Of a stretch of DNA of 64,000 nt, positions 2,990 through 62,737 are shown in pieces. Source of the DNA: an uncultured Bacillota bacterium. Its GTDB lineage: Bacteria; Bacillota_I; Bacilli_A; RFN20; CAG-288. Position numbers and translations under genes: made by a program. The stretch is taken from assembly GCA_949299015.1 (NCBI GenBank), contig CASFYT010000012.1, forward strand, positions 1 to 64,000, given 5' to 3'. The stretch's first letter is position 1, and each line of letters starts with the position of its first letter. The notes under the pieces are model-generated. The model saw only the letters and a list, made by a program, of their open reading frames with translations, was not told the origin of the DNA and did not search any database.

Positions 2990-4201
2990 TCAGCAGGAGT
3001 GGATGACCTTCGCAAGCCCGCCGAGAGACGTCTCCTTCAGGCTGTGGGGAAGCTCCTTCCCCGTGAGCTTCATCGCCCGGACGACGTTGTCGAAGCTGAC
3101 GACGTTCTCCCGGCAGGGGCAGATGTCCTTGGCGAAGAGATAGGACGTATAGGCATGGACGGCCGCCATCGCGTTGCGCTCGATGCAGGGAACCTGGACA
3201 TAGCCGTCGATGGGGTCGCAGGTCAATCCGAGGAAATGCTCCATGGCGACCTCGCTCGCGTACTCGATCTGGTGGACGTCGAGCCCCATCAGATAGGAAT
3301 AGCTTGCAGCCGCAAAGGAGCAGGCAGAACCGATTTCCGCCTGGCATCCAAGGACGGCTCCTGAAAGAGAAGCGTTTGCCTTGATGAAGTTGGCGACGAG
3401 AGCACCGACAAGATAGGCTTTCGACAATTCCTCGATTCCCTTTCCGGACCGATGGGCGTGATAGAGCAGGGCCGGGACGACGCCGCTGGACCCGCAGGTC
3501 GGCGCCGTGACGACCTCGGCGCCGCGGGCGTTCTCCTCGCTGGTCGCATAGGCCTAGGCGGACAGGAGCAGGAGAAGCCTTTCTCCCTCTTCGGAGCAGC
3601 TCTCGGCGACCCGGCGGACCTTGGCGCTGACCGGGGAGAGGTTCAAGGGACCGGGAAGGGGGCTTGTTTCCTCCAACCCGCGTTCGATGGTCCGGAAGGA
3701 GTGTTCGAGCAGTCGCCGTGAGAAATCCCAGATCTCCGGGCCCTCGAGCCTCTCGATGGCCTGGGCGACGTCGTCGATCCGTTCCTTCCGCAGATAGTCC
3801 TTCATCTCGTCAAAGCTTTGGAAGGGATAGACGTCCTTGCTCTTCCTTCGCTCGCCCATCCTCCGATAGGCGCCTCCTCCCAGGGAGAAGAACGTCTCCC
3901 GAATCCGTTTCCCTTCCTTCGTGACAGCTTCCACGACCATGGTGTTGGGATGAGGAAGGTGGTCGAAGTCCGAGTCGAAGACGATCTCCGTCGGAACGTT
4001 CGAAAACGCCCGCAGGAGGACCTGGTCGGTCCGATGTCCCTTTCCCGTCAGGGAGAGGGAACCCCGCAGGAGGACGCGGATGCGGGCAAGCCCTTCGTCC
4101 TTGTGTTCGGAAAGGAAACGCTCAGCGATGCGATAGGGCGCGATGGTATGGCTGGACGAAGGACCAGGTCCGAGGAGCAGGAGCTCACGTAGCGATTTCA
4201 T
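2990..4201 (-). pseudogene. sdaA: Single-chain L-serine dehydratase (4Fe-4S) interrupted by one in-frame TAG
   Basis: L-serine ammonia-lyase makes pyruvate and ammonia from serine. The beta domain (from MKSLRELLLLGPGPSSSHT at 4201) and the alpha domain (TSEENARGAEVVTAPTCGSSG to the C-terminus) lie in the same frame, about 403 residues, with a single TAG codon at 3554-3556 between LLLLLSA and AYATSEENA. No other defect is seen: the SSSHT motif, the alpha-domain cysteines (APTCG, GSACS, LTCDP) and the C-terminal Cys, which in type 2 enzymes caps the cluster, are all there. A Tyr codon is common at the TAG position, so one base change could explain it. It may be a recent pseudogene, a readthrough site, or a sequencing error. 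The MKSL start fits the SSSHT spacing and the adjacent -10 box; eight codons upstream another ATG exists. Confidence 0.8.
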
Positions 4202-4207
4202 GCCACC

Positions 4208-4236
4208 ATTATAGCGCCGTTCCACCGCAAGGTCAT
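4208..4236 (-). promoter_or_regulatory. Promoter of sdaA, predicted leaderless
   Basis: Minus strand: ATGACC (4236-4231), 17 bases, TATAAT (4213-4208), then six bases to the ATG at 4201. Initiation 6-7 bases after the -10 would fall on the start codon, and no Shine-Dalgarno is present. Confidence 0.6.
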
Positions 4237-5584: not shown

Positions 5585-5593
5585 TGGTATAAT
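5585..5593 (+). promoter_or_regulatory. Extended -10 promoter of the rlu gene, predicted leaderless
   Basis: TGGTATAAT (5585-5593) is a perfect extended -10, seven bases before ATG 5601. There is no Shine-Dalgarno in that gap and no clear -35. Confidence 0.6.
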
Positions 5594-5600
5594 TGAAACC

Positions 5601-6581
5601 ATGAAATTCACGATCCAAGAAACGGACGCCCATCAGCGGGTCGACAAGTTCCTTCGCCGTGCGCTGAAGGACGCCCCTGTCTCCTTCCTCTACCGCATGT
5701 TCCGCCAGAAGGACGTCAAGGTCAACGGAAGGAAGGCCGCCATCGACTATCTCCTTCAGGAAGGGGACGTCGTCGACGTCTACCTGAAGGAAGACCTCCT
5801 GGAGCAATTCCGCAGGGAACAGGTCCTGCGGCCCGTCAAGCCGGACTTCAAGATCCTCTACGAGGACGAGAACATCCTGGTCATCGACAAGAAGAAGGGA
5901 CTGCTCGTCCACGCCGAAGGAGAGGAGAAGGACCTCACCCTTCAGAACATGGTCCTGAACTATCTCAGCGCGAAAGGCGAATTCGACATCAACGACGCGA
6001 AGGGATTCCTCCCTTCCCCGGCCCATCGTCTGGACCGGAACACGAGCGGCATCGTCCTCTTCGGAAAGAACCTCCTCGCCCTGAACGAACTCATCCGCCT
6101 CTTTCGCGAGCGCAGGGACATCGAGAAGAAATACACCCTCCTCGTCTGCGGCCGCGTGAAGAGGGACGGGAACATCGACTTTCCGCTTCGGAAGGATTCC
6201 CAGACGCACAAGGTCCACGTCGCGACCATCAAGGGCGGCGGCAAGGAGGCCCATACCGTCTACCACCGGCTCAAGGCCTACAACGCCGGCTATTCGCTGG
6301 TCGAGGCCGAGCTCCTGACCGGAAGGACGCACCAGCTCCGCGTCCACTTCGCGGCGATTGGAAATCCCATCGTCGGCGACGCCAAATACGGCGACTTCGA
6401 GGTCAACGACTTCTTCAAGAGGATGTATTCCTACCGCAACCAGTTCCTTCACGCGTCCTTCTTCCGCTTCAAGGAGACGGTGGAGGGGCCGCTGTCCTAT
6501 CTCCGCGGCAAGGAATTCGTCTCTCCCCTGCCCCAGAGGGAGGCGCACATCATCGACTCCCTCAAGAGGATCAATGGATGA
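5601..6581 (+). CDS. RluA-family 23S rRNA pseudouridine synthase (RluC/RluD-like)
   Basis: 326 residues, the usual length. It isomerises specific uridines in large-subunit rRNA. An S4 RNA-binding domain covers about residues 12-75; the synthase domain follows, with the catalytic motif HRLDRNTSG at 142-150 (Asp145 is the nucleophile in this family) and the RTHQLRVH motif near 240. RluC and RluD types cannot be separated by eye. The start ATG is seven bases after a perfect extended -10 with no ribosome binding site. The last four bases overlap the next gene (ATGA), so the three downstream unknown genes are probably translated from the same message. Confidence 0.92.
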   Translation: MKFTIQETDAHQRVDKFLRRALKDAPVSFLYRMFRQKDVKVNGRKAAIDYLLQEGDVVDVYLKEDLLEQFRREQVLRPVKPDFKILYEDENILVIDKKKGLLVHAEGEEKDLTLQNMVLNYLSAKGEFDINDAKGFLPSPAHRLDRNTSGIVLFGKNLLALNELIRLFRERRDIEKKYTLLVCGRVKRDGNIDFPLRKDSQTHKVHVATIKGGGKEAHTVYHRLKAYNAGYSLVEAELLTGRTHQLRVHFAAIGNPIVGDAKYGDFEVNDFFKRMYSYRNQFLHASFFRFKETVEGPLSYLRGKEFVSPLPQREAHIIDSLKRING

Positions 6582-11602: not shown

Positions 11603-11715
11603 GTCGTTTCCTCCCGGTCTATTGTAACCGATGGCGGCGCGCCTCGGCTTCCCTTTTTGCCTCGGCGATCGTTTTTTCCTAGTCCCCCGGCACCGGAAGC
11701 AGGTAGAATAGAGTC

Positions 11716-13419
11716 ATGAAACTCATCCTGACATGGATTCTCCCCTTCCTTCTCTCCCCGGCCCTTTCCCCGCGTGCCACCTTCCAGGGAAAGGCCTTCG
11801 ACGCCAGCCAGCCTCTCGACCTGACCCCGTCGACGGCGGAGGAGATCGACCTCTACTACCAGGACGTCGACACCTCCCTTTCCGGCGACGCCTTCATCGC
11901 CTCCCTCTACGAGACCATCTCGGCGGACAACCACTTCGTCTCCTACAGCCAGGTCAACGACTGGTACAAGGTCACCGACCGCAACGACAGCCTCTCCCAG
12001 GCCATCGATCCGGCGACGTACGACTTCGACCTCGACAAGGAGGGAAACTACTTCCTGGTCCAGCTGTATTCCTCCCAGAACGACGACCCGGCCAAGGCCT
12101 ACAACACCGATGCCAACAAGATCACCGGCAAGGAGAACTACGATCCCACGCTGACGCGGATCGACTGGGAGAACGGAAAGAAGAACAACGTCTCCATCCA
12201 GGTCGACAGGGAACACTGCTGGGCCAAGAGCCACGGCTTCGAGGGCGATCCCGTCAAAGGGGCGGGGACGGATCTCCACCACCTGATCGCGGCCGACCAC
12301 AACACCAACAGCGCCGGCCACAACGACAACGACTTCGGCGAGGTCGACCTCAGCCAGGAATACAAGGAGATCTACTCCTACAATGCCGACGGCACGAAAG
12401 ACCTCTCCGGATACCTCGGGGTGGACGAAGATGGCCATTCCGTCTTCGAGCCGATGGACGAGTGGAAGGGCGACGTCGCCCGCGCCCTGCTCTACATGGG
12501 GACCCGCTACTCCTCCGACGTGGACAACAGCAAGGAGGAGCCGCACCTCGTCCTGACCGACGACTTCGGGCTGGAAGACGACAACGACCTCTTCTTCGGC
12601 GTCCAGCACGGACTGAGCACCTTCCTGGAATGGAACGAGCTCGACCCGGTCGACGACTACGAGCGCCAGCGCAACGACCGCATCGCGAAGAACGTCCAGA
12701 ACAACCGCAATCCCTACGTCGACCATCCCGAATGGGCGCGCAAGGCCTACGCCCCCGAGACCGAGCTCCCCTACGACCTCTCCTCCCTTAAGGATCGTTA
12801 CGACGGCTACGTGGGCGAGGACTTCGGCCTGGACGTCCGCCTCGAGGAAGGAGCCTCCTACACGGCGACCTCCTCCGACGAGGACGTCGTCACGATCGCC
12901 GAGGACGGAAGGACCGTCCATCCCCGGAAGGAGGGCGAGGCGACGATCACCTACGAGGTCCAGGACGGAGAGGAGACCCTCCGGGCCGCAACGACCATCG
13001 CCGTCCATCCCCTTCCCACCCTCGGCGGCCTTCCGGAAAACACGGGATCGTACCTCTTCACCCTCGAGGTCGGGCAGTCCCAGCCCCTGTCCCTCGTCCT
13101 CCAGGGGGGACGCGGCGAGACGCTCCGCTACCGCTCCACCGACGAAGAGGTCGCCACCTGCGACGAGGACGGGACCGTCCACGCCGTCGGCGCCGGGGAA
13201 TGCCAGATCGAGGTCTCCATCGACTATCACGGCCGGTCGCTCCTCCTGGCCCAGGTCTCCCTCTCGATCCAGCCGCGGAGCGTGACGACCTACGTCATCA
13301 TCATCGCCGTCTGCGCCGTCCTGCTGATCCTCTTCTTCGTCATCCTCGCCCTCGTCGGGAGGAAGAAGAAAAAAGGCAGGAAGGTCAAGGATAAGGAACT
13401 GACGAAAAGGAGGAAATGA
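11716..13419 (+). CDS. Secreted endonuclease I-family nuclease with Ig-like repeats and a C-terminal membrane anchor
   Basis: 567 residues. Order: signal peptide (1-21); Endonuclease_1 domain (about 55-350) with the metal/His region DREHCWAKSHGF near 169 and GTDLHHLIAADHNTNSAGHN near 190; a Big2-like domain (about 370-435) with the TSSDEDVVTIAEDG pattern; a second (about 455-520) with RSTDEEVATCDEDG; a transmembrane helix (about 528-555) and a basic tail (GRKKKKGRK). It would sit on the outer face of the membrane and cut DNA or RNA, for nutrient recovery or DNA processing. TAGAAT ends six bases before the ATG and there is no Shine-Dalgarno, so a leaderless message is possible. It is followed one base later by a small unknown gene. 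Confidence 0.87.
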   Translation: MKLILTWILPFLLSPALSPRATFQGKAFDASQPLDLTPSTAEEIDLYYQDVDTSLSGDAFIASLYETISADNHFVSYSQVNDWYKVTDRNDSLSQAIDPATYDFDLDKEGNYFLVQLYSSQNDDPAKAYNTDANKITGKENYDPTLTRIDWENGKKNNVSIQVDREHCWAKSHGFEGDPVKGAGTDLHHLIAADHNTNSAGHNDNDFGEVDLSQEYKEIYSYNADGTKDLSGYLGVDEDGHSVFEPMDEWKGDVARALLYMGTRYSSDVDNSKEEPHLVLTDDFGLEDDNDLFFGVQHGLSTFLEWNELDPVDDYERQRNDRIAKNVQNNRNPYVDHPEWARKAYAPETELPYDLSSLKDRYDGYVGEDFGLDVRLEEGASYTATSSDEDVVTIAEDGRTVHPRKEGEATITYEVQDGEETLRAATTIAVHPLPTLGGLPENTGSYLFTLEVGQSQPLSLVLQGGRGETLRYRSTDEEVATCDEDGTVHAVGAGECQIEVSIDYHGRSLLLAQVSLSIQPRSVTTYVIIIAVCAVLLILFFVILALVGRKKKKGRKVKDKELTKRRK

Positions 13420-13840: not shown

Positions 13841-14457
13841 TCCGGAAATTCCTTCTCAAGGGCCTCGATGAGCCGATAGGGCGGGAGATAGGATCGTTCG
13901 ACCCGCGTCCCTTTCTGCTGGAAGAAGCTCCGCTTGAGACCCTGATGCCGGCCTTCCTCCTCGACGGCGAGGACCTTGCGGGCGTCGATCAGGTAGACCT
14001 CTCCGTACTTCTTGAAGGAGACGAGGAAGAAGCCGATTCCTCCCATCCGGAGGATCGTGTCGAGATGCCGGTACTGCTGCTCGCGGATCATGTGGTAGGG
14101 AATCGAGTCGTGGATGGTCTCCTTGCACTCGAAATCGACGTAGAAGCCACGGTAGATGCCGACGTAGTCCGTCGTCGACTTCTCCTGGAAGTAGGCTTCT
14201 TCGATCATGCCCTTCCGGACCTTGCTCATGCGGACCACCTTGATCGGGGTCGGTCGTTTGTAGATGTCGGCGATTTCCCTTTCCCGGTAGTAGTCGCAGC
14301 TTTTCGAGACGTCGGATTCGAAGGCCATGCCCATGTTGGTCCGGACCATCTTGTCCCGGATCCGTTCCTCCTCGGTCCTGTTCTCGCTTCTTCTCCGGTC
14401 CTTTCCGGGCTGCTTCTCGACAAAGGGAGCCTTTCTTCCGTCCGGATAGCGAATCAT
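13813..14457 (-). CDS. recU: Holliday junction resolvase RecU
   Basis: 214 residues, normal for the Firmicute RecU. It cuts four-way DNA junctions during recombination repair. The catalytic signature is present: TTDYVGIYRGFYVDFECKET at about residues 94-113, holding the Asp, Glu and Lys of the active site, plus the conserved HDSIPYHMIREQQ that follows. The basic N-terminal tail matches the family. It is the second gene after a MarR regulator (27-base gap), an arrangement that gives no obvious functional link. In Bacillus recU neighbours ponA; no penicillin-binding protein gene is seen here. Confidence 0.93.
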   Translation of the reverse strand: MIRYPDGRKAPFVEKQPGKDRRRSENRTEEERIRDKMVRTNMGMAFESDVSKSCDYYREREIADIYKRPTPIKVVRMSKVRKGMIEEAYFQEKSTTDYVGIYRGFYVDFECKETIHDSIPYHMIREQQYRHLDTILRMGGIGFFLVSFKKYGEVYLIDARKVLAVEEEGRHQGLKRSFFQQKGTRVERSYLPPYRLIEALEKEFPDYFCGFLRK

Positions 14458-14484
14458 GGTTCCATCCTCCGCGCGTGGAAGGGA

Positions 14485-14973
14485 TCAGTCATCGAGGAAC
14501 ATCTTCTTCAGGTCCTCGTTGAGGACGTTCGGCTGGCAGGAAAGGTCCAGGATGCGGAAGAGATGCTGGCATTCCTCCGGGCCGAGGATGTCCAGCCAGG
14601 ACGCGAAGAGGAAGTTCAGCTTCAGGCCGACGCGATGGATGTGCCTCTTCCCTTCCTCCGTCAGGTAGACGTGGATCTGCCGGTGGTTGGTCTCGTCGAT
14701 CTGCCGGACGATGTACTTCTTCTCGTCCAGGATCCGGAGGTTGGCCGCGACGTTGGGACGGGTGACGTTGAGCTGCTCCGCAAGGACGGAGGGCTGCGCC
14801 CCGGGATTGCGGACGAGATACATCAGGATGCGGTAGTCCGTCTGCATCAGCGGAGAGAAAAGGTTCAAGGTTCCGTTGGAGAAGACCTTGTCGACATAGG
14901 AAAGCAGCTTCTCCACGTCGCCCTTCTTCTTGGGGTCCAGCTCCAAGGCCTGTCTGAGATCGAATGTCTTCAT
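14485..14973 (-). CDS. MarR-family transcriptional regulator
   Basis: 162 residues, typical length. The winged helix-turn-helix lies at about 45-115: LVRNPGAQPSVLAEQLNVTRPNVAANLRILDEKKYI, then the wing region HRQIHVYLTEEGK. Flanking helices would form the dimer. MarR proteins usually repress their own or a neighbouring gene and release DNA on binding a small ligand; neither target nor ligand can be read here. Two copies of AAATGATTT lie in its promoter region, consistent with self-control. Start has AGAGGT. recU follows on the same strand. Confidence 0.88.
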   Translation of the reverse strand: MKTFDLRQALELDPKKKGDVEKLLSYVDKVFSNGTLNLFSPLMQTDYRILMYLVRNPGAQPSVLAEQLNVTRPNVAANLRILDEKKYIVRQIDETNHRQIHVYLTEEGKRHIHRVGLKLNFLFASWLDILGPEECQHLFRILDLSCQPNVLNEDLKKMFLDD

Positions 14974-14993
14974 GGCAATACCTCTTGTGCATC

Positions 14994-15037
14994 ATTCTAT
15001 CACAAAAGATGGAAATGATTTCAAAGACAAATGATTT
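14994..15037 (-). promoter_or_regulatory. marR promoter region with two direct AAATGATTT repeats
   Basis: Minus-strand -10 TAGAAT (14999-14994) with TTGAAA (15024-15019) 19 bases upstream. AAATGATTT occurs at 15013-15021 and 15029-15037 in the same orientation, 16 bases apart, over and upstream of the -35. This is a plausible operator, inferred. Confidence 0.45.
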
Positions 15038-15043
15038 GACCGC

Positions 15044-15077
15044 AAAAAAATCCGCCAGGTTTGCGGTCCTGGCGGAT
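15044..15077 (-). terminator. Terminator of the ADH-SDR-NfnAB operon
   Basis: Minus strand: ATCCGCCAGG, 8-base loop, CCTGGCGGAT followed by seven Ts. Confidence 0.9.
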
Positions 15078-15087
15078 CGTTCGTCTC

Positions 15088-16545
15088 CTACTTGGACGAG
15101 AGGTATTCGTCGATGGCCTTGGCCGCCTTCTTGCCGGCGCCCATCGCCAGGATGACCGTCGCCGCTCCGGTGACGGCATCGCCGCCCGCATAGACGTGCT
15201 CCTTGGTCGTCTCGTTGGTCTCCTCGTTCACGATCAGGCAGCCATGGGCGTTGGTCTCGATTCCCGGGGTCGTGCTCTTGATCAGCGGATTGGGGCTCGT
15301 TCCGAGGGACATGATGACGCAGTCGACGTCCAGCTCGAACTCACTGTCCGGAATCGGTTCCGGCCTTCTTCTTCCGGAAGCGTCCGGTTCTCCGAGCTTC
15401 ATCCGGATGCAACGGATCTTCTTGACGCATCCATAGTTCGGATTGGTCTTGGGCGTGCCCTCGAGATCCTCGATGATGGCGACCGGGTTGGTCAGCAGCT
15501 GGAAGTCCACGCCTTCCTCCTCGGCATGCTCGACCTCCTCCCGACGCGCCGGAAGTTCCTCACGGCCACGTCGATAGACGCAATAGACGTGCTCGGCGCC
15601 CAGACGAAGGGCCGAACGGCAGGCATCCATGGCGACGTTTCCTCCGCCGACGACCGCCACGCGCTTGGCATGCTCGATCGGCGTCTTGCTTTCTTCGCGA
15701 TAGGCCTTCATCAGGTTCATGCGGGTCAGGAACTCGTTGGCCGAGTAGACGCCCTTGGCATTCTCGCCCGGGATGTTCATGAAGCGAGGAAGACCGGCGC
15801 CCGAGCCGACGAAGACGGCCTCGAACCCCTGCTCCTGCATCAGCTCGTCGATGGAGTAGACCTGGCCGATCACCATGTCGGTCTCGATTCGGACCCCCAT
15901 CTTCCTCAGGCCGTCGATCTCCGACTGGACGATGGCCTTGGGGAGACGGAATTCCGGAATGCCGTACATCAGGACGCCGCCCGCGACGTGAAGCGCTTCG
16001 AAGATCGTCACGTCGTAGCCCTTGCGCGCAAGGTCCCCGGCGCAGGTCAGTCCCGAGGGGCCCGACCCGATGACGGCCACCTTGTGGCCGTTCTTCTCGA
16101 TCGTCCTATCCTCTTCCTTGGCGTGCGTGCGGTGGTAGTCCGCGACGAAGCGCTCGAGGCGGCCGATGCCGACGGCCTCCATGTGCTCGCCGGTCGGCTT
16201 GCCGTCCTTGAGGACCGGAAGCCGGAGCTTGATGCACTTTCCTTCGCATTGGTTTTCCTGCGGGCAGACGCGGCCGCAGACGGCCGGAAGGGCGCTCGAA
16301 CGGCTGATGACCTGATAGGCTTCCTCGAAGCGGCCCTCGCTGACCTCATGGATGAAGGCGGGAATGTCGATACGGACCGGGCAGCCCTGGACGCAGGAAG
16401 GGTTGCGGCAGTTGAGGCATCGCTTGGCCTCGTCGATAGCGGTCTCCTCGTCATAGCCGAGGGCGACTTCGTCGAAGTTGCGGGCGCGGACCTTGGGATC
16501 CTGCGTCGGCATCGGATTCTTCTTCGGTCTCATGTTGATGGCCAT
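15088..16545 (-). CDS. nfnB: NfnB subunit of NADH-dependent ferredoxin:NADP+ oxidoreductase (GltD-like)
   Basis: 485 residues. NfnAB couples ferredoxin and NADH oxidation to NADPH formation by flavin bifurcation. Two 4Fe-4S clusters are placed by CLNCRNPSCVQGCP (about 43-56) and CGRVCPQENQCEGKC (about 90-104). An FAD-binding GSGPSG lies near 160 and a NADPH-binding GGGNVAMD near 300; the C-terminal GDAVTGAATVILAMGAGK completes the FAD site. The sequence alone would also fit the small subunit of glutamate synthase, but the partner two bases upstream is a ferredoxin-NADP reductase-like NfnA and no large glutamate synthase gene is near, which favours NfnB. Last gene of the operon; terminator follows. 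Confidence 0.88.
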   Translation of the reverse strand: MAINMRPKKNPMPTQDPKVRARNFDEVALGYDEETAIDEAKRCLNCRNPSCVQGCPVRIDIPAFIHEVSEGRFEEAYQVISRSSALPAVCGRVCPQENQCEGKCIKLRLPVLKDGKPTGEHMEAVGIGRLERFVADYHRTHAKEEDRTIEKNGHKVAVIGSGPSGLTCAGDLARKGYDVTIFEALHVAGGVLMYGIPEFRLPKAIVQSEIDGLRKMGVRIETDMVIGQVYSIDELMQEQGFEAVFVGSGAGLPRFMNIPGENAKGVYSANEFLTRMNLMKAYREESKTPIEHAKRVAVVGGGNVAMDACRSALRLGAEHVYCVYRRGREELPARREEVEHAEEEGVDFQLLTNPVAIIEDLEGTPKTNPNYGCVKKIRCIRMKLGEPDASGRRRPEPIPDSEFELDVDCVIMSLGTSPNPLIKSTTPGIETNAHGCLIVNEETNETTKEHVYAGGDAVTGAATVILAMGAGKKAAKAIDEYLSSK

Positions 16546-44195: not shown

Positions 44196-46211
44196 ATGCT
44201 GTTCTCCGCCTTTCTTGGAATGACGATCGGCCTCCTTTCCGTCCTCGTCCATCCCCTGCTCCTCCTGCTCCTCCTTCCCGCGACCTTCTTCCTCTTCCGA
44301 AGGAGGGAGAAGGGGAAGCTCCTTGCCCTCCTTCTTGCCCTCGGCACGGGCATCCTGCTCGTCCTTCTCTTTCCGAAGGGAGAGGTGGGACCGCTCGAGG
44401 ACGTCTTCCTTGTCCTCCAGAGGAAGGAAAGCTATTGTCTCCTTCTCTCCGCAAAAGGAAGGTACCTCTGCTATGACGACGGTCGCTTCAACCTCTTCAG
44501 CCTCGTACGGATTCAAGGAGAAAGTCTCGAGTTTCGCTTCCGGCACTACGAACACTCCTTCGACTTCGAGGGCTACCTTCGGACGCGGGGCGTCTTCCAC
44601 GAGCTTCGGATGGAGGAAGCGGAGCCTCTCTTCGACTCGCCTTTGAACCTGGACGGCCTGAAGACCTACGCCTTCTCCTTTCTCGAAGGGGAAAGCCGTT
44701 CCTTGGTCGACAGCCTGCTGTTCGGAGGATCGCTCGCCGACCTTTCCTCCTATCCCGACCTGGCCGACCTCGGATGGACCTCCCTCTTCGCCCTCGGAGG
44801 CTTCCACCTCTCCTTCCTGCTCTGGATCGCGGACAAGGTCCTCGGTCGCAAGGGAAGGAGCATCCATCGCCTCTTCTCCCTCCTGCTTTCCTTCCTCTTC
44901 CTGATCCTTTCGCTCTTCCGCGCTTCGATGATCCGCATCTTCCTTCTCCGCGCCCTCTCCCTGCTCAACCGCCGATTCAAGAGAAAGCTCCCTCCACTGG
45001 AGATCCTTTCCCTCGTCGCCCTCCTGTTCCTGCTCTTCAACCCGTATTTCCTCCTCTCCTCGTCCTTCGCCTACAGCTTTCCCCTCCTCTTCCTCCTGAG
45101 AATCTTTCCCCGGCGAGGGCGTGGAAAGGGAACCTTCTTCCTGTTCCTGACCCTCTTCTTCCTCCCCTACCGACTCGCCGCGGAATATGAATTCGTCCTC
45201 TTGGGCCCCGTGCTTCAATTCTTCCTGATGCCCCTGAGCCATCTTCTCTTCCTTCTATCCCTCCTTTTGTTCCTCCTTCCGCAGATCGGATTGGCCATCC
45301 ATTCGATATCGATGTTCATCTTGTCTCTATCAAAAAAAGTCGTTTCCATTTCTCCTTCTTTTTCCACAGGAAGACTTCCAATTCTGTTTTTCGTCCTATT
45401 CTATCTTCTCTTCTTTCTTTTTCTTCTCTTTGGGACCTACCGGATCAAAAAGTATTCCCTACTCTCCCTTCTCGGCATCGGGTCCCTTCTGGGGCTGAGC
45501 GTCCTTCCCGACTTCTCGAACCACGAGGAGATCCATTTCATCGACGTCGGCCAGGGAGACGCCACCCTCGTCCGCCACGGACGCTCCAACCTTCTCATCG
45601 ACACCGGCGGCGACGTCCATAACGACCTGGCGACCGACTGCCTGATTCCCTACTTCCAATCGCTGAAGATCACCCGAATCGACGCCGTCTTGATCACCCA
45701 CTATGACTTCGACCACTACGGCGCCCTGGAGAGCCTGAGAAGGAACTTCCCCGTCGGAGAGGTCCTCGACGTCTACGACTTCCTCGAGGACGAGGACGGA
45801 CGATTGACGGTCGCAGGCCTGGAGATCGAGAACCTGAACCTCTGGGGAGAGGGGGACAGCAACAGCCAGTCCGCCGTCTTCTCCTTTGCGCTGGGAGAGA
45901 AGGAGGTGCTCATCATGGGCGATGCCCCACGCACCGTCGAAGCGAAGATCATGGAACGGTTCCCGAACCTGGAATGCGACGTCCTCCGCCTTGGCCACCA
46001 TGGATCCAAGACGAGCAGCGATCCGATCTTCCTCTCCTTCCTCGACCCGGAGGTCGGCATCCTCTCCGTCGGCGTCGACAATCCCTATGGACATCCCGAT
46101 TCGGAAACGATCCAATCCCTGGAACAGCGGAACATTCCCTATCGTCGGACCGACGAGGATGGAACGATCGCCTTCCGCTTTTCCCCCACCTTTTCTATAA
46201 TGGAGACGTGA
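44196..46211 (+). CDS. comEC: DNA uptake channel ComEC
   Basis: 671 residues. The first ~430 residues hold many hydrophobic helices and the OB/competence region (FEGYLRTRGVFHEL near 127, then LADLGWTSLFALGGFHLSFL near 188-207, the Competence-domain motif). The C-terminal metallo-beta-lactamase domain starts HFIDVGQGDATLVRHG (about 448) with LLIDTGGD and LITHYDFDHYG, the metal ligands. It moves single-stranded DNA across the membrane. The 3' end overlaps coaX by four bases. DNA at 45301-45420 falls to about 34 percent GC within this otherwise GC-rich gene. Confidence 0.93.
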   Translation: MLFSAFLGMTIGLLSVLVHPLLLLLLLPATFFLFRRREKGKLLALLLALGTGILLVLLFPKGEVGPLEDVFLVLQRKESYCLLLSAKGRYLCYDDGRFNLFSLVRIQGESLEFRFRHYEHSFDFEGYLRTRGVFHELRMEEAEPLFDSPLNLDGLKTYAFSFLEGESRSLVDSLLFGGSLADLSSYPDLADLGWTSLFALGGFHLSFLLWIADKVLGRKGRSIHRLFSLLLSFLFLILSLFRASMIRIFLLRALSLLNRRFKRKLPPLEILSLVALLFLLFNPYFLLSSSFAYSFPLLFLLRIFPRRGRGKGTFFLFLTLFFLPYRLAAEYEFVLLGPVLQFFLMPLSHLLFLLSLLLFLLPQIGLAIHSISMFILSLSKKVVSISPSFSTGRLPILFFVLFYLLFFLFLLFGTYRIKKYSLLSLLGIGSLLGLSVLPDFSNHEEIHFIDVGQGDATLVRHGRSNLLIDTGGDVHNDLATDCLIPYFQSLKITRIDAVLITHYDFDHYGALESLRRNFPVGEVLDVYDFLEDEDGRLTVAGLEIENLNLWGEGDSNSQSAVFSFALGEKEVLIMGDAPRTVEAKIMERFPNLECDVLRLGHHGSKTSSDPIFLSFLDPEVGILSVGVDNPYGHPDSETIQSLEQRNIPYRRTDEDGTIAFRFSPTFSIMET

Positions 46212-46996
46212 ACGACATCGTTTTCCTGGACATCGGCAACACGTCGGTCGACGTCCTTTCTCCCCTCCGCGGGCACCGGAAGTTCTCTCCTCGCCGTCTT
46301 TCCTCCCTCGCCCGCTTCCTCTCCTCCTGCCGGTCGAGGCGAGCGGTCCTCTCCTCGGTCGTCCCCTCGACGACGAAAAGGCTCCTCACCCTCCTTTCCG
46401 CCAGCGGAATCGAGGCCTGGGTCCTGGACTCGGGGCGCATGAGGGACTTTGCCTCCCGGGAAGGATACCGAATCGACAACATCGACGTCCTGGGGGCGGA
46501 CCTCTTCTGCGACCTGGTCGCCGAGGAATCGGAGAAGGGGTGGATCGTCCTCGACTGCGGGACGGCGACCAAGATCCTCGCCCTCGACGGGAGGAAAGCC
46601 TTCCTTGGCGGCGCGCTCCTCCCCGGCCTCTCCTCCTTTTCCCTCGGCCTGACGAAGAAGGCCGCCCTGATTCCCCTGGCACGGGAGGTCGAACAGGCCC
46701 CCTTGATCTCCCTGGACACCGACGAGGCCATCGCCGCCGGGACCTTCCACGGCACGGCCTTCGTCCTCGAGGGATACGTCTCCGCCCTTCGGAAGAGACC
46801 CGGGATGGAGAGGGCCGGCCTCGTCCTGACCGGCGGCGAGGCGCAGAAGATCCTTCCGTTCCTTTCCGACCGCTGCCGCCGAAAGGTCCGGCTCGACCTG
46901 GAGTGGACGTTGAAGGGACTTCGGCGCTGCTATCAGGAAGAAACCGATTTCTCCGCGGGAAGAAGTAGCCAAAAGGGGACAAATCAAATAGAATAG
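46208..46996 (+). CDS. coaX: Type III pantothenate kinase
   Basis: 262 residues. First step of coenzyme A synthesis from pantothenate. ASKHA fold: phosphate loop FLDIGNTSVDV (about 6-16), GADLFCDLV (near 98) with the catalytic Asp, and DCGTATKI (near 117-124). The start is GTG 46208, overlapping the comEC stop (GTGA). TATAAT (46196-46201) ends six bases before it, inside comEC, so an internal leaderless promoter is possible besides readthrough. The C-terminal residues (SSQKGTNQIE) are a short non-conserved tail. Confidence 0.9.
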   Translation: MNDIVFLDIGNTSVDVLSPLRGHRKFSPRRLSSLARFLSSCRSRRAVLSSVVPSTTKRLLTLLSASGIEAWVLDSGRMRDFASREGYRIDNIDVLGADLFCDLVAEESEKGWIVLDCGTATKILALDGRKAFLGGALLPGLSSFSLGLTKKAALIPLAREVEQAPLISLDTDEAIAAGTFHGTAFVLEGYVSALRKRPGMERAGLVLTGGEAQKILPFLSDRCRRKVRLDLEWTLKGLRRCYQEETDFSAGRSSQKGTNQIE

Positions 46997-54209: not shown

Positions 54210-54919
54210 TGAAGATCCTTCTTCCCACGCTCTATGAAAGTCAGTACTATCTCGTCGACCACGACTTCCGCTCGGACGGAACCTTCCAGATTCCCGTCCG
54301 TTCAGACGGCGGCCTGACCCTCGACAACTTCCGGACCGTGAACGCCTATCAGGGCGAGGAAAGCCTGACCCTGACGCCGACGCAACTCGAGAGATGCCAA
54401 GACAACGATTACCTTCTGACCGTCGAATCGTCCGAACCGGACGTTGCGATCGATCGGATCGATTTCCACATGTCCAACGGCGACTCCTACTCCCTCCCCG
54501 TCTATGTCCTCCTGAGGTCGTCGACGGAAACGCTCGAATTCTGGTCCGAGGGAATCGAGCTCCTCACCTCCGACATCTATGGCGAGAAGTTCGAGGTCAC
54601 CTATCACTTCCAGCCATCGGTGGAGACGACGCTCGACTTCCTGAGAATGCCCTCCTTCAACTATTCCCCGCTGACGGAACCGACGGAAATCCACATCCAA
54701 GAGAGCAACGAGGGACATTCCCTCACCGACCTGATCTATACGTTCCAGGCGAACGTCGAATGCGAAATCACCGTCTCGTTCCCCGAAAACTTCAACGCCT
54801 ATTTCTTCACGGATGCCCTCTCGCTCTACGGACGTGCCGGCAATGCCGAAGCCACCTTCTTCGCGGAAAGCTCCGCCGACTGCCTGAAGAAGGAGTTCGG
54901 CTACGTCTTCGACCGCTGA
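54210..54919 (+). pseudogene. 5'-truncated secreted or lipoprotein-like gene
   Basis: The frame is open from about 54210 to the stop at 54919 (about 236 residues) but has no signal peptide, no ATG and no ribosome binding site; the first possible start, GTG 54338, lies inside the conserved part. By eye it resembles the lipoprotein at 60351-61133: both have a FxxPVxxDxGL-like segment, then GxxYSxPVxVL and a similar C-terminal part. The N-terminal third with the lipobox seems lost. A terminator follows. It is probably a decayed paralogue at the edge of the accessory island. Confidence 0.55.
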
Positions 54920-54928
54920 GCCCCTTCC

Positions 54929-54953
54929 GGGTCGCCCTTCGTGGCGACCCTTT
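54929..54953 (+). terminator. Terminator after the truncated gene
   Basis: GGGTCGCC, CTTCGT loop, GGCGACCC then TTT. Confidence 0.75.
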
Positions 54954-54980
54954 CCCGTTCCTTTCGAGAGAAGAATCCAC

Positions 54981-55023
54981 TATAATCCACTCCATGAAAG
55001 GCCGAACGATCGATCTTGAGTAA
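54981..55023 (+). pseudogene. Promoter and first nine codons of a lost tyrosine-phosphatase paralogue
   Basis: TATAAT (54981-54986), seven bases, then ATG and codons for MKGRTIDLE followed by TAA. The same layout and almost the same peptide (MKDRTIKLEG) open the intact phosphatase gene at 59500, where TATAAT is eight bases from the ATG. Both also share AATCCAC before the -10. The rest of this copy is missing and foreign AT-rich DNA begins at the break. Confidence 0.6.
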
Positions 55024-55261
55024 GCTTCAAAGGAACAGTGAATTGAGACTTGAGGCGTTGTAAAATTGAGTAAAAAGATGATGGGTCTAGCCCTCATGCA
55101 CGGTTACCATGGCAGGTGATTTGTATGATTGGAGCTCTTGTCTCCTTTATCGGTCAGTTCCCTAATGACTTTGTCAAGTATTTGACTGGGCTTAGTTTGT
55201 TCTCTACGACAGCTTTGATTCTTGTTCTTTCACAGAAAGCAGTTTTTTCGGATTTGTTTTT
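55024..55261. other. AT-rich segment of unknown origin, left flank of the IS
   Basis: About 240 bases with composition unlike the core genome. A frame from GTG 55116 encodes about 50 hydrophobic residues (FPNDFVKYLTGLSLFSTTALILVL) and is cut by the IS at 55262; joining across the IS would add only about 20 codons. No family recognised and no good ribosome binding site, so I do not call it a gene. Confidence 0.4.
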
Positions 55262-56260
55262 GAGAAGGATCAACAATAGTGTTGCTGTCTTGGTCGAAGT
55301 TCCCGTCTTTTAAGGCATTTTCCGGATTCGAATATTCTTTGGTTGATCTTTGAGAAGTAGTCTTCGTATTTCCTATCGTCATGGATTTCTTTCCTTTCCA
55401 CGAAATCATCCAAGCATTTCTGAATGTTGCGTGGATGAATTCGGAGGCGGACTTTGAACAATCTTTGGATTGCATTGCAGAAACGATTGATGGGATTCAG
55501 GAGGGCATGGGCTTCTTTTGATTGGGAATCTATGGCGACCTCATCGCATCGTTCGAAGGCTTTTTCATACCAGCCCTTATCGTGAATCACAATAGAACCT
55601 AGTGCGACATGATTCTCGAATGCCTGCTCGGAATCTCGCTTGCTTGCCTTTCCCGTCGACAGCAACGGCAATCTGCGCGAGGTCCTTTGACAGACCTCTT
55701 CTCTTGATCTTGCTTCTCTCTTTTGCTTGGACATGAATATAGGTTTCATCGACGACTGTTTTCCCAGAAAGAACGAATTTTCTTGAGTTTTTTCTAAATG
55801 CTGAAGCTTTCTCTTCCAAAGAATGACTGTTTGAATCGACACCTTTGACTGATGGGCAATCTGATGCGTCAGGACACCGTCTGACAGTAAAGGCAGCATC
55901 CTTCTTGATTGTCCGGACTTCAGCTTCAAGGAGAAAAGAATCGTATTGGAACGACCGGTAAAGGTCTTATGGCAATCCCTGCAATACCATCTCTGATGTC
56001 TATGCTCTTTTCCATGTTTCTTGATGTCTGTGCGATCACAATGCGGACAGCAAAGAAAAGAAGCGGCAGAAAGACTTCTCCTGTCAAAAGAAGAGATGCC
56101 AGAAGACATGACAGCCCCTTTCCGAACGTTCGAAGGTCACCGAGAGGGAAAGTGCCATATCGTCGCTTGGTGACCCACGGACATTTACGATATGGCAGGA
56201 CAATTGTATCTCGATCGACTTCAAATCGATTCATCAGCAACACTATTGTTGATCCATCTT
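55262..56260 (-). mobile_element. IS1595-like insertion sequence, 999 bp, with 8-bp target duplication
   Basis: Both ends are visible. The terminal inverted repeats are 25 bases with 23 matches; the inner 20 (GGATCAACAATAG... at 55267-55286 and its complement at 56236-56255) are identical. The element is flanked by TTGTTTTT at 55254-55261 and 56261-56268, an 8-bp direct repeat as expected for IS1595-family insertions. The transposase gene inside is broken by frameshifts. Confidence 0.85.
55270..56109 (-). pseudogene. IS1595-family transposase, frameshifted
   Basis: The N-terminal zinc ribbon (CPHCDRTDIKKHG...YCRDCHKTF, about residues 20-50) and a helix-turn-helix are in one frame. The DDE core strand VVDETYIHVQ and the following AVDGKGK are in a second frame (near 55640-55780), and the rest (IVIHDKGWYEKAFERC, then INRFCNAIQRLFKVRLRIHP) returns to the first frame. 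Two compensating frameshifts are therefore needed to rebuild the protein, so it is probably inactive. The transposase would cut and paste the element using DDE chemistry. Confidence 0.8.
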
Positions 56261-56374
56261 TTGTTTTTTTATCGTTACAATCTCCTATTTCACCCTCGCC
56301 TCACCGGTCCCGTTGCAATTGATCATTTTTCCTAATTATGTTCAGAATAGTTCTCTCTCTTGTGGACGACGAAC

Positions 56375-56842
56375 ATGAAATGTAAGGCACTGTTTTCAGC
56401 CATCGCCCTCCTTTCCCTCCTTTCGCTTTCCTCCTGCTTTTGCTCGGGGAAGAACATGTGCACCAACTACTTCGTCGCTGGGGAATTCGCGGGCATGGAA
56501 GAAAAGGACCAGTCTCGATCCTATCTTTTCAATGTCTCTGAGATTTCTCAGCAAGAATACGAGGATGCCGGTGGTCTCAACGTCGTGGACGATTACGTCC
56601 TCGGAGCGTACTTCTCAATCGAGCTCACCATCGTCACGAAAGAAGGAAGTACGACCTACGACTTCATCAACATGGAAGAGGCGTGGACAACGAGGGATTT
56701 CCCCATTTCCTACCATGATGACAACCAGACGTGGATTACCCCGCATCGGGACAAAAAGGACTCCCCCTGGAATTATCGAGAACATTTCTATCTGATCGAA
56801 ATCACCGATTTGGACGCCCACGTTTTCTTCGATCCTGTCTAA
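56375..56842 (+). CDS. Small lipoprotein, paralogue A of a tandem family
   Basis: 155 residues from ATG 56375. Lipoprotein signal: MKCKALFSAIALLSLLSLSSC with acylated Cys21. The mature part (CFCSGKNMCTNYFVAGEFAG) continues to a conserved TWITPHRDKKDSPWNY near 126-141. The protein at 58681 is a close copy; the first ~125 bases differ at only about five positions. No known family. It precedes a cysteine peptidase gene. The ribosome binding site is weak (GTGGA), so expression may be low. A longer frame from 56360 is rejected since the lipobox would be displaced. Confidence 0.72.
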   Translation: MKCKALFSAIALLSLLSLSSCFCSGKNMCTNYFVAGEFAGMEEKDQSRSYLFNVSEISQQEYEDAGGLNVVDDYVLGAYFSIELTIVTKEGSTTYDFINMEEAWTTRDFPISYHDDNQTWITPHRDKKDSPWNYREHFYLIEITDLDAHVFFDPV

Positions 56843-57206
56843 GAGCAAGGCGAAGCGAAGAAACGTTTACATAAGAACTCAATCGAGGAAAATGTGGAAT
56901 CATCTAAAACATCTCTATATTTTGAATCCCTTTGTTCTCCCGAATGCTTCTGAATTTCTATCGCATTGCACACTACAAGATTTCTCTATATGTCATTTCT
57001 TCGATTGAAATCATCGCGTTTGAAGACGGCCGAAGATGGAAATTGATACGCAATATGAGAAAAACGCACCGCAAGGGCTAATTTGCATATTCGTTACCTC
57101 CATGCTATAAAGAAACTAGCAATCATTCAGAGCAGTCGCTTTCTCATTTCATGGCTTCATTCCTTTTTTCTTCCTTTGCCGTATTTCAAAGGAGGCCAAT
57201 CACATT
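56843..57206 (+). other. AT-rich intergenic region with the promoter of the cysteine peptidase gene
   Basis: 364 bases without a gene. TTGCAT (57083-57088), a 17-base spacer and TATAAA (57106-57111) form a good promoter about 95 bases before the peptidase start; AAAGGAGG lies near 57189. The leader between them shows no strong hairpin. Confidence 0.55.
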
Positions 57207-58679
57207 ATGAGCAATTTCACGGCCGTCGTCGGCTCATTCTCCCTTCTTTTGGCACCAGACACCACTTTTTCCGATGTACTCGCCAACGCTACCTTGTCCG
57301 ACCAGGCCTTCGCCGAACAACAGCAGATCACGGATTGGGAAAGCTATTTTGGTTATATGCGGTCAAGCAAAGGAGACAAGGACGAAGGCGAAGAAGAGAA
57401 AAGCTTGACGACCGCCATCTTTAACATTCCCATGCTCCTCCAGGAAGAGGAGCCGGAGTATTATTGGATAAAGAACGAAGAGAAGTCCGCAGAAACGATG
57501 GACGTCTCCAACGCCATTCCGGTCGAAATGCAATCTGAGGGATTTTATTCAGATTCAGAATTGAACCAAGCCATCCTTCTCGCGGAAGTGAGCGATGAAA
57601 CAAGTTATGGTGGCTGCGGCCCAATCGCGATGATCGGGATACTGGATTACTTTTCGCGCTATCTTGGGTACGACGAACTCATTCAAGATCCGACGGACTC
57701 TTTGCAACGGATACAGCTCGCCAAGGAAGTTCTGGAAGCGACCCATTTTTCCTTTTTTGGCAACCAAGAAAATACCCTCGTCTGGCCATGGGACGCACGG
57801 GATTCCTTCAATGCTGTCATCGAGAACCATGGACTTGACGACATCCTCTCTGCCCAGTCGGATTGGACGCTCTTCCTCGGGCATTACGAAGACTACTGGC
57901 CGATGGTCGTCGAAAGCATCGACAAGGGAATACCGACCACTCTCTTTGTGGGGTACAGAAACGGGAACGGCTCATTCGCGCAGCATTACACAAACATCTA
58001 TGGTTATGAAACCTGGACAGGCATTCCAAGGAGCGGAACGACAGGGGAACAGAAGAACAGAACCTTTCTCAAGGCTCGCTTGAACGGCGGAGACATGAGA
58101 GAATGCTACTGCAATGCCACCATCTTGGAATGTGCTCAAGTCGGTCTCATCACATATGACCTGAAGCCCAACAACAGCTATTCCTTCCAATCCGATGAAT
58201 TCACGGAATACTTCGTCAACTCAGAAGGCGAAGGATACTACAATCCGACTTCGCGTCTGGAATTTGGCACGCTTGACAACGGCATCGACATCATGACGGA
58301 GCGTTTGAGAACAGGGTATTTCGAAGACCAATATCTGCTTCTTTCCCCAAATCGGGCAGGGGCAGGAAATTCCTACCTTACCCTTTCCTTTCCTCACGAC
58401 ATCTCAAGACTGTCGTTCAAAGCCTCCGTTTTTAGTCGTAATGAATACAACGTCGATGAAGAATTCCGCATTCAGTACTTCAGAGACGGTACGACATACG
58501 ATCATATCGAAATTGACTTGAATTCCCTCGGATACTCGATTTTGAGTGCCGAACCGATCGACGTTCTCTTCCCGAAAGGTACACGACAATTCACGTTCTC
58601 GGCCATCGATCCTACACCTGCAGGCAACGAAGACCGCGGACGAATTCAACTTGAGAGTTTCGCGGTGGAGTACAACTGA
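57207..58679 (+). CDS. Papain-like cysteine peptidase (C39-like), probably extracytoplasmic
   Basis: 490 residues. The catalytic region has TSYGGCGPIAMIGILDYFSRYLG (about 132-154), with the Cys and helix typical of C39/papain-like peptidases, and FAQHYTNIYGYETW (near 257), with the His in a strand; an Asn/Asp follows. The C-terminal ~180 residues look like a beta-sandwich binding domain (LSFPHDISRLSFKASVFS). The N-terminus has a weak hydrophobic stretch (FSLLLAP, DVLANA), so export is likely but not proved. It is flanked by two copies of the same lipoprotein, which could be its partners or inhibitors (inference). Confidence 0.72.
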   Translation: MSNFTAVVGSFSLLLAPDTTFSDVLANATLSDQAFAEQQQITDWESYFGYMRSSKGDKDEGEEEKSLTTAIFNIPMLLQEEEPEYYWIKNEEKSAETMDVSNAIPVEMQSEGFYSDSELNQAILLAEVSDETSYGGCGPIAMIGILDYFSRYLGYDELIQDPTDSLQRIQLAKEVLEATHFSFFGNQENTLVWPWDARDSFNAVIENHGLDDILSAQSDWTLFLGHYEDYWPMVVESIDKGIPTTLFVGYRNGNGSFAQHYTNIYGYETWTGIPRSGTTGEQKNRTFLKARLNGGDMRECYCNATILECAQVGLITYDLKPNNSYSFQSDEFTEYFVNSEGEGYYNPTSRLEFGTLDNGIDIMTERLRTGYFEDQYLLLSPNRAGAGNSYLTLSFPHDISRLSFKASVFSRNEYNVDEEFRIQYFRDGTTYDHIEIDLNSLGYSILSAEPIDVLFPKGTRQFTFSAIDPTPAGNEDRGRIQLESFAVEYN

Positions 58680-58680
58680 C

Positions 58681-59217
58681 ATGAAATGCAAGACATTGTT
58701 TTCAGCCATCGCTCTCCTTTCCCTCCTTTCGCTTTCCTCCTGCTTTCGCTCGGGGAAGAACATGTGCACCAACTACTTCGTCGCTGGGGAATTCGCGGGT
58801 GTCGCGGAAGAGGATTCTTCCACCTCCTTTCTGTTCGTCGTGAAGGAGATCGCCCAACAGGAATACGAGGGTGCCGGTGGTCTCAACGTTGTGAACGATT
58901 ACGTCCTCGGAACGTACTTCTCGATCGAGCTGACCATCGTCACGGAAGAAGAAAGCACGCCATACGACTTCGTTAACATGAGGCTGTATTCCAAAACTCC
59001 TCACTTCCGTGCCACATACCATGACGACAAGGATACGTGGATTACCCCGCATCGGGACAAAAAGGACTCCCCATGGAATTATCTGGAGCATTTCTATCAA
59101 ATACAGCTTCCGAGATTGGGCCTTCATGCCTTCTTCGATCCTGTCGAAGAGGAAGAAGAAATATCCGCATCCAAACTCAATCAAAGAGATTGCCAAAGCC
59201 ACAATCCAGTGCATTAA
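58681..59217 (+). CDS. Small lipoprotein, paralogue B of a tandem family
   Basis: 178 residues. Signal and lipobox identical to paralogue A (FSAIALLSLLSLSSC, Cys21), then CTNYFVAGEFAG, and the same TWITPHRDKKDSPWNY block near 119-134. The C-terminus differs and is longer (EEEEEISASKLNQRD...). It begins one base after the peptidase stop, with GGAG inside the peptidase end as ribosome binding site, so peptidase and lipoprotein are co-translated. Function unknown. Confidence 0.75.
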   Translation: MKCKTLFSAIALLSLLSLSSCFRSGKNMCTNYFVAGEFAGVAEEDSSTSFLFVVKEIAQQEYEGAGGLNVVNDYVLGTYFSIELTIVTEEESTPYDFVNMRLYSKTPHFRATYHDDKDTWITPHRDKKDSPWNYLEHFYQIQLPRLGLHAFFDPVEEEEEISASKLNQRDCQSHNPVH

Positions 59218-59485
59218 CGCAGAGATGTCTATCGGTATTTTCATCCGAATTCCAATCCATATCGTTCTTTACTAGAAGGCGGCCTATGTATTTCGTTCCA
59301 TTCATCTCATCCAATCTCTACGAAGAGAAATTTGATGCGATCTGTCACATCAAATCCCTGTCTGATGAAACTCTCGACTTCATCCAGACGCACTTCTTCC
59401 GCTTCTCTCCTCTGACCGCTTCCAAGAACCAAGATCAATTCCCCACAAAACAAGACCTTTTCTTCCATCGCCAGAGGAAATCCAC
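59218..59485. other. Intergenic region upstream of the phosphatase gene
   Basis: About 270 bases. A frame from ATG 59287 (start YFVPFISSNLYEEKFDAI) is open but has no good ribosome binding site and runs out of frame into the phosphatase gene; I see no family. Possibly a remnant. Confidence 0.35.
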
Positions 59486-59491
59486 TATAAT
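59486..59491 (+). promoter_or_regulatory. -10 box of the phosphatase gene, predicted leaderless
   Basis: TATAAT ends eight bases before ATG 59500; the gap (CTCCTCGC) has no Shine-Dalgarno. Confidence 0.55.
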
Positions 59492-59499
59492 CTCCTCGC

Positions 59500-60354
59500 A
59501 TGAAAGACAGAACAATCAAGCTGGAAGGAACCATCAACACAAGGGACCTCGGAGGTCTTAGAAGCAAAGACGGAAGAAAGATCAGGAAAGGACTGCTCAT
59601 CCGGACAGACTGCCTCTATGCCCTGACGGAGAACGACATCCGTTCTCTTTCCGCCCTTCCTGCCCGTTACGACGTCGACTTCCGGAACGAAAGAGAAATC
59701 GCCGAACGTCCCGAGATCCCCATCCCCGGATGCAAACTCGTCAACCTCCCCATCGTCCAGGACCACAACATGGGAAAGAAGCCGTGGCCCCACGAGACCT
59801 ACGGCGTCGAGGATCGTCGCCTGCTCTCCCTCTTCGACTTCATCTACGTGCTCTCGAAGGAGGGCGATGCGAAGAAAGGGATGGAGCAGAGCTACCGGAA
59901 CTACGTCTCTTCTCCTCTCGGACAGAAAGGCTATTCCTCCTTCCTTCACCTCGTCCTCCGAAACGAGGGCAAGGGAGCCGTCCTCTTCCACTGCGCCGAC
60001 GGCAAGGACCGTGCCGGCGTCGGGGCGATGATCCTGCTCCTGGCGCTCGGCATTCCCTTCGACACCATCCTCGAGGACTATCTCGAGACGAATGACGCCG
60101 TCTCGGAAAAAAGGGAAGGCCGCCGAAGGATCCTCCATCAGCACGGCGTCCAGGATCCCCTCCTCTCCTCCGTCCTCTCCCTGACAGGAGTGGAACCAAA
60201 CTGGCTCCAGGCCGCCTACGACGAAATGAAGAGACAGGCCGGAAGCATCGATTCCTATTTCGACGGCTTCCTCCATTTTGACGAAAAGAAAAGAAGGCGC
60301 CTTCAAGAAATCTATCTCGAGGCGCCGGATCGTTCAAAGACAAGATCTTCCTAG
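59500..60354 (+). CDS. Dual-specificity/tyrosine phosphatase (Y_phosphatase3 family)
   Basis: 284 residues. The family opening TRDLGGLRSKDGRKI (about 14-28) and the P-loop HCADGKDRAG (about 166-175; Cys167 nucleophile, Arg173) are complete, and the general-acid loop region includes VEDRR. Such enzymes dephosphorylate Tyr or phosphoinositides; bacterial targets vary. No signal peptide, so cytoplasmic. The promoter lies directly before the start. Its TAG stop shares the bases CTAG with the stop of the convergent lipoprotein gene. A broken copy of its 5' end is at 54981. Confidence 0.88.
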   Translation: MKDRTIKLEGTINTRDLGGLRSKDGRKIRKGLLIRTDCLYALTENDIRSLSALPARYDVDFRNEREIAERPEIPIPGCKLVNLPIVQDHNMGKKPWPHETYGVEDRRLLSLFDFIYVLSKEGDAKKGMEQSYRNYVSSPLGQKGYSSFLHLVLRNEGKGAVLFHCADGKDRAGVGAMILLLALGIPFDTILEDYLETNDAVSEKREGRRRILHQHGVQDPLLSSVLSLTGVEPNWLQAAYDEMKRQAGSIDSYFDGFLHFDEKKRRRLQEIYLEAPDRSKTRSS

Positions 60355-62553: not shown

Positions 62554-62579
62554 TTATGTACTTCCTCCTCTTGCCAATA

Positions 62580-62588
62580 AGTATAGCA
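62580..62588 (-). promoter_or_regulatory. Extended -10 promoter of the three-gene exported-protein operon
   Basis: Minus strand TGCTATACT (62588-62580), 26 bases before the start codon. Confidence 0.6.
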
Positions 62589-62737
62589 CAAATTTTGGAA
62601 AGGGGTTACAACACTTCGGCAACGTTCGATTCGGGTCCGAACGCAATTCCTGCTGTCCACTCCGGTGCCGGTCCAACGGAAGAGGTCGATCGACGCGCGA
62701 GGAAAGCTCCTCTCGAAGCCATGCTCGCACCTCTTTG

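Follow-up and report, generated by a model that had tools for sequence, protein, structure and literature searches.

Five gene starts in the window, by which we mean the whole stretch of 64,000 nucleotides analysed here, very probably (about 0.88) represent a small class of genes in which a housekeeping-sigma promoter is fused to the start codon, and their messages are predicted from the sequence to be leaderless. The original prediction had seen in these starts a distinct class of leaderless messages. The geometry itself, the enrichment of the -10 hexamer at one narrow spacing, its mutual exclusion with Shine-Dalgarno (SD) sites and its conservation gene by gene are observed, and the last three give the proposal, as a prediction, good support.

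The source assembly has 1.14 Mb in 19 contigs and is 85% complete; the window comprises the first 64 kb of its contig 12. The RNase P RNA of the source genome is of class B, the Bacillota type, and genome sizes across the 59 comparison genomes range from 0.8 to 2.1 Mb. We sampled 408 kb of the assembly, with a GC content of 57% and 279 called genes, and 200 kb from each of two relatives of the same genus, G010 and G013. The gene caller was purpose-built; its calls span 78% of the source-genome sample, and it missed the phosphatase start in the window.

Geometry of the five starts

Throughout this work the gap is the number of nucleotides between the end of the hexamer and the start codon, and the SD score is the longest match to the anti-SD complement AAAGGAGGTGATC ending 3-13 nt 5' of the start. 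At sdaA, the perfect TATAAT described in the original prediction as ending six bases before the ATG is present on the minus strand at 4213-4208, followed by a gap of 6 (GGTGGC) and the ATG at 4201-4199. The coding frame (2993..4201, minus; PF03315 and PF03313) has its predicted leaderless start at 4201. A possible weak -35 element, ATGACC (4236-4231, minus), matches TTGACA at 4 of 6 positions across a 17-nt spacer; in the region upstream of sdaA no column exceeds 62% among the 8 aligned leaderless-like orthologues, and conservation of a -35 was not found there.

The same geometry without SD had been claimed for four other genes, and we found it at all of them, with TATAAT or TAGAAT at gaps of 6-8 and an SD match below 5 nt. 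The rlu gene, predicted to be leaderless, encodes an RNA pseudouridine synthase with an S4 domain (5601..6581, plus; PF00849, PF01479) and is, by gene spacing, the first in a run of closely spaced genes. Its extended -10 element TGGTATAAT lies at 5585..5593 (plus), with the TATAAT at 5588-5593 and a gap of 7 before the ATG at 5601. The nuclease, an endonuclease I family protein with a Big_2 domain (11716..13419, plus; PF04231, PF02368) and a predicted leaderless start, has TAGAAT at 11704..11709 (plus), 6 nt before its ATG at 11716. The tyrosine phosphatase family protein (59500..60354, plus; PF13350), likewise predicted to be leaderless, has TATAAT at 59486..59491 (plus) and a gap of 8 before its ATG at 59500. 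The type III pantothenate kinase gene coaX (46208..46996, plus; PF03309) has TATAAT at 46196..46201 (plus) and a gap of 6 before a GTG start at 46208 that overlaps the upstream gene by 4 nt.

The first T of the hexamer is at -12 in sdaA, the nuclease and coaX, at -13 in rlu and at -14 in the phosphatase. The longest SD match is 0 nt in every case except the nuclease, where a 4-nt match (AGGT) overlaps the hexamer itself. As a separate observation, the coaX hexamer falls within the final codons of the preceding comEC-like gene (PF03772, PF00753), and the promoter element of coaX, the stop of the comEC-like gene and the start of coaX are packed into the 16 bases at 46196-46211.

Enrichment at short gaps and exclusion of Shine-Dalgarno sites

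A count of TANAAT before start codons against shuffled sequence had been proposed together with the original prediction, and its outcome lies well above chance. Among the 279 called genes TANAAT occurs in 9 at gaps 6-8 and in none at gaps 9-14, and in 100 dinucleotide shuffles the number at gaps 6-8 averaged 0.61, with a maximum of 4. We also made a count independent of the gene caller, covering all ATG codons at the head of an ORF that was 60 or more codons long and had a coding score of 5 or higher. In the 408-kb sample this gave 7, 3 and 4 cases at gaps 6, 7 and 8, a total of 14; the remaining 17 gaps of the range 0-19 together hold 10, so that 1.76 would be expected at gaps 6-8 (Poisson p 6.3e-9). 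The corresponding numbers were 6 against 0.53 expected in G010 and 6 against 1.76 in G013, which brings the three samples of the genus to 26 against 4.06. In the whole assembly, the pattern TATAATN{5,8}ATGAA occurs 14 times; its reversed form and its version with a gap of 10-13 occur 0 times each. The excess of about 12 cases in 408 kb corresponds to an estimated 34 or so genes in the assembly, and the leaderless class would be an estimated 3-4% of the source genome if this has about a thousand genes.

In each of the three genus samples the TANAAT spacing before called genes has two modes, and gaps 9-14 are empty; in the caller-independent count the same gaps hold a few ATG cases per genome (3, 1 and 3). 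The second mode lies 20-35 nt 5' of the called genes, a pattern that fits what is expected of leadered promoters.

In giving strong AAGGAGG sites to most other genes the original prediction went too far, since an SD match of at least 5 nt precedes 154 of the 279 called genes (55%) and one of at least 7 nt precedes 59. The two kinds of start nevertheless exclude each other: in the three genome samples an SD of at least 5 nt was found in 1 of 18 leaderless-like genes versus 274 of 512 others (Fisher p 3.6e-5), the single case being L117 with a 5-nt match (AAAGG). The same holds for the 54 leaderless-like orthologues of the five genes described below, of which 51 start with ATG and 3 with GTG, and one has an SD of at least 5 nt.

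Conservation in orthologues of the family

For four of the genes the orthologues were counted from the best match downwards (22 of 30 family loci for rlu, 20 of 30 for coaX, 16 of 27 for the phosphatase and 16 of 30 for the nuclease), and for these four most of the uncounted loci are lower-scoring or additional hits in genomes already represented. For sdaA, 30 loci of 38 matches were used; 3 of the 20 coaX loci and 2 of the 16 nuclease loci were dropped before counting.

At rlu, 17 of these best 22 loci have TANAAT at a gap of 5-9 and none at a gap of 10-14; a further three carry TATATT or TAACAT with gaps of 6-9. Of the 17 hexamers, 14 follow a TGn, giving an extended -10 element (TGnTANAAT). 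With the 17 loci aligned on the hexamer, no column exceeds 65% outside TGnTATAAT and the A that precedes it, which indicates that the core of the promoter was kept and its surroundings drifted. A -35 element for rlu was considered and rejected, since no column outside the -10 block reaches 70%.

For coaX the hexamer is present at a gap of 5-9 in 12 of the 17 loci used and at a gap of 10-14 in none, and for the nuclease in 10 and 0 of the 14 loci used. The nuclease orthologues carry TAAAAT, TAGAAT or TACAAT and never TATAAT. The phosphatase has the hexamer at a gap of 5-9 in 7 of 16 loci used, with 1 of 16 at a gap of 10-14. For sdaA the numbers are 8 and 1 of 30 loci; all 8 leaderless-like loci are among the 14 of its own family, with 0 of 16 from the other families of the order, and of the remaining 22 of the 30 loci, 10 have an SD. 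By eye, two orthologues of sdaA (L007 and L008, in G012 and G003) have a terminator-like hairpin and T run that ends about 10 nt before the ATG and leaves no space for an SD, and TANAAT is absent there. Pattern counts in 23 genomes of the family gave more cases at gaps 5-8 than at gaps 10-13 in 18 genomes, fewer in 3 and equal numbers in 2.

Alternative explanations

Three other explanations of the five starts were weighed. That TATAAT-like words beside start codons were simply picked by eye from chance occurrences is barely credible. The pattern is indeed common at either gap in AT-rich members of the class, but the gap profiles and the shuffles rule out eye-picking in the source genome (14 against 1.76 expected, and 14 against 0 and 0 genome-wide), and the arrangement is conserved in five gene families. 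It is also highly improbable that the promoters are real but the ribosome uses an in-frame start farther 3' that has an SD, which would make the messages leadered and the starts misassigned. Such a downstream start is likely for two GTG candidates, L113 of the source genome and L265 of G010, which have AGGAGG or GAGGAG within a few codons 3', and perhaps for L114 and L123, two of the 14 ATG cases of the source genome, with GAGGA or GGGAGG just inside the frame; some motif-bearing genes, such as these four, may thus be leadered instead. The five genes of the window behave otherwise: an in-frame start with an SD was found within codons 2-40 in none of them, and only rlu has any other in-frame start there (codon 33, without SD). 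Moreover, the Pfam matches begin near the N-terminus, at residue 3 in sdaA, 12 in rlu and 6 in both coaX and the phosphatase, and the alignments to the G010 proteins begin at residue 1 for all five genes.

A third explanation places transcription farther upstream, with the nearby TATAAT secondary or silent and the leadered message translated without SD, through an AT-rich unstructured start or protein S1. At coaX, whose start lies within the last 4 nt of the gene before it, read-through is likely, and non-SD modes besides leaderless initiation are discussed for other phyla (PMC5397173). The genes 5' of rlu and of the nuclease, however, are both on the opposite strand. The GC content of the source-genome sample is 57%, and what has been conserved is the -10 hexamer with its narrow spacing and not AT richness in general, which makes this explanation very unlikely. 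The data thus favour the reading in which the promoter is fused to the start codon.

Proposed mechanism

Under the fused-promoter reading, RNA polymerase would recognise the -10 hexamer, for rlu in its extended form TGnTATAAT without a conserved -35, and the RNA would begin 6-9 nt 3' of the hexamer, at the first base of the ATG or GTG or no more than about two bases away from it. In the Mollicute Mesoplasma florum the measured spacing from the -10 to the transcription start site (TSS) is reported as mostly 6-7 (PMC7745072). Where the gap is 8-9, either the message would carry 1-2 leader bases or the TSS would be slightly late. Because there would be no room for a leader, the ribosome would meet a 5'-terminal AUG or GUG, and most likely it would recognise such an AUG directly, which is how initiation on other leaderless messages has been described. 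For the five starts, both the RNA 5' end and this mode of ribosome entry are what we infer from the arrangement. A longer transcript may serve as message for coaX as well. In Streptococcus pneumoniae an SD site added to one leaderless promoter fusion is reported to have left the luciferase output unchanged (PMC6212727), and by analogy such independence from the SD might also hold in the source genome.

We further considered whether leaderlessness could be under gene-specific selection in this lineage. Many members of two families have kept the rlu promoter joined, or almost joined, to the start codon, although about half of the genes in the sampled genomes of the genus have SD leaders. The product of rlu modifies RNA, and a feedback might operate in which the rlu message would be read only by ribosomes in a particular state, for example unmodified or 70S, and synthesis of the enzyme would track ribosome maturation; we regard this reading as a whole as very unlikely.

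Reading frame of sdaA

The sdaA frame contains an in-frame TAG at 3554-3556 (minus), after residue 215. In G010 the gene encodes one fused chain of 404 aa with a sense codon at this place, and most other sdaA open frames of the family are near 404 aa. The source-genome frame is 76% identical to the G010 chain from end to end and continues in the same frame past the TAG, which suggests that sdaA encodes a fused beta-alpha L-serine dehydratase as in the relatives. Reassignment of TAG as the explanation for this stop found no support in a limited test with other genes, in which 242 query proteins drawn from the samples of G010 and G013, sdaA not among them, gave 84 HSPs against the source-genome sample; an internal stop was present in 1 of the 84, a TGA in a gappy alignment of 31%. 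As no sign of TAG read-through appeared elsewhere, sdaA is either freshly broken by a nonsense mutation or the consensus is wrong at this place. The relatives still support a predicted leaderless start for sdaA.

Distribution beyond the family

In the neighbouring family f5, rlu matches were present in 54 genomes and 30 loci were taken, of which one was dropped. TANAAT lies at a gap of 5-9 in 14 of the 29 counted and at a gap of 10-14 in 6, and 2 of the 29 have an SD of at least 5 nt. In f3, f20 (two loci) and f25 the TATAAT-like word before rlu is farther off, and 3 of the 4 loci have an SD of at least 5 nt. At the three rlu loci outside the order of the source genome the SD matches are 6, 4 and 5 nt and the TATAAT-like word is likewise more distant. 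A search for rlu in 149 genomes of the phylum gave 10 hits among the matches listed, all of them in the class of the source genome; it added two new loci, L323 and L324.

Pattern counts for the class were summed for 8 of its 29 numbered families, and AT-rich members make these counts noisy. The ratio of gaps 5-8 to gaps 10-13 is above 1 in f1 (1.40), f5 (1.20), f25 (1.27) and f22 (1.48) and below 1 in f20 (0.71), f14 (0.84), f18 (0.83) and f27 (0.80). Six genomes of f3, a family of the same order as the source genome that was added by hand, total 255 and 259 at the two gap ranges and show no excess. A class-wide trait is rejected by these excesses and deficits and by the result for f3; leaderless use is patchy among families. 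Four more genomes of the class were profiled over 100 kb each, and at gaps 6-8 we counted 5 against a shuffle mean of 1.39 in G082, 4 against 1.19 in G079 (with another 4 at gaps 12-14), 1 against 1.83 in G081 and 1 against 1.55 in G061; some of these four may use another genetic code, which the gene caller does not model.

Comparison with known leaderless genes

The original prediction had placed these starts in a lineage where leaderless messages are not usually noted. This is right only in part. A survey of 209 Firmicutes genomes predicted leaderless genes in 56 of them, at an average of 4.2% and mainly in Lactobacillales and Mycoplasma, with patchy use in the former (PMC3160421). The TA-led signal of that study (Zheng 2011) is TANNNT about 12 nt 5' of the start, without SD; in Firmicutes it is TATAAT, preceded by TG in several low-GC genomes (PMC3160421). 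The source genome resembles this reported set in the position of the core, in the position-specific excess and in the absence of SD (5 of 5 genes). It differs in belonging to a separate lineage that is uncultured, in the 57% GC of its sample and in its hexamers, which are of the form TA(T/G/A/C)AAT.

In streptococci 8.6-9% of transcripts or operons are reported to be leaderless with the TSS at the start codon, and 81% of the leaderless mRNAs of S. pyogenes are also leaderless in S. agalactiae (PMC6431027, PMC6212727), so that conservation by gene is known behaviour. The streptococcal reports rest on mapped TSSs and, in S. pneumoniae, on a reporter test, whereas the source genome is known from its sequence alone. 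Mesoplasma florum, which shares a small genome with our organism, is described as having the TSSs of nine genes exactly on their start codons (PMC7745072). SD sites are reported to be scarce among the genes of Mollicutes (PMC10783764, PMC5397173), in contrast to the share of genes with an SD of at least 5 nt in the source genome. Apart from PMC10783764, which names Erysipelotrichia once, in an anti-SD table, our search for literature on leaderless genes in RF39, Erysipelotrich and metagenome-assembled Firmicutes found nothing, and it says little about the family studied here.

Predicted leaderless genes with a TA-led signal are therefore of a known kind, and what is new is the lineage and the gene-by-gene conservation. 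The best feature of the finding is the conservation at rlu in a moderately GC-rich, uncultured lineage. The finding corrects the annotation of starts and promoters for a group of uncultured Bacillota with small genomes, in which leaderless starts, used for particular genes, coexist with SD starts, and the conserved cases at rlu, coaX and the nuclease provide material for asking why some genes keep leaderless messages.

Other motif-bearing genes and features of the window

Functional themes were scanned in 20 further motif-bearing ORFs (11 of the source genome, 6 of G010 and 3 of G013), of which 3 have no Pfam match. They include a deformylase, D-Tyr-tRNA deacylase, IspD, Sir2, a SpoU methylase and Tgt, and MreB and ParA each bear the motif in two genomes. 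A common functional theme was rejected, since no single pathway emerged among the 20 ORFs and the five window genes; the motif-bearing genes look like housekeeping genes.

The leaderless-like gene at positions 13902-15536 of locus L117 encodes, in a single frame of 544 aa, a tyrosine recombinase together with a HAD hydrolase domain. Towards the end of the window, the GC content drops to 48.6% at 56-60 kb, the gene caller placed 0 genes between 54919 and 59770, a weak InsA zinc-ribbon match lies at 55273-56109, and four scanned ORFs at 57.2-62.6 kb have no Pfam match; the segment at 54900-62600 is possibly a genomic island.
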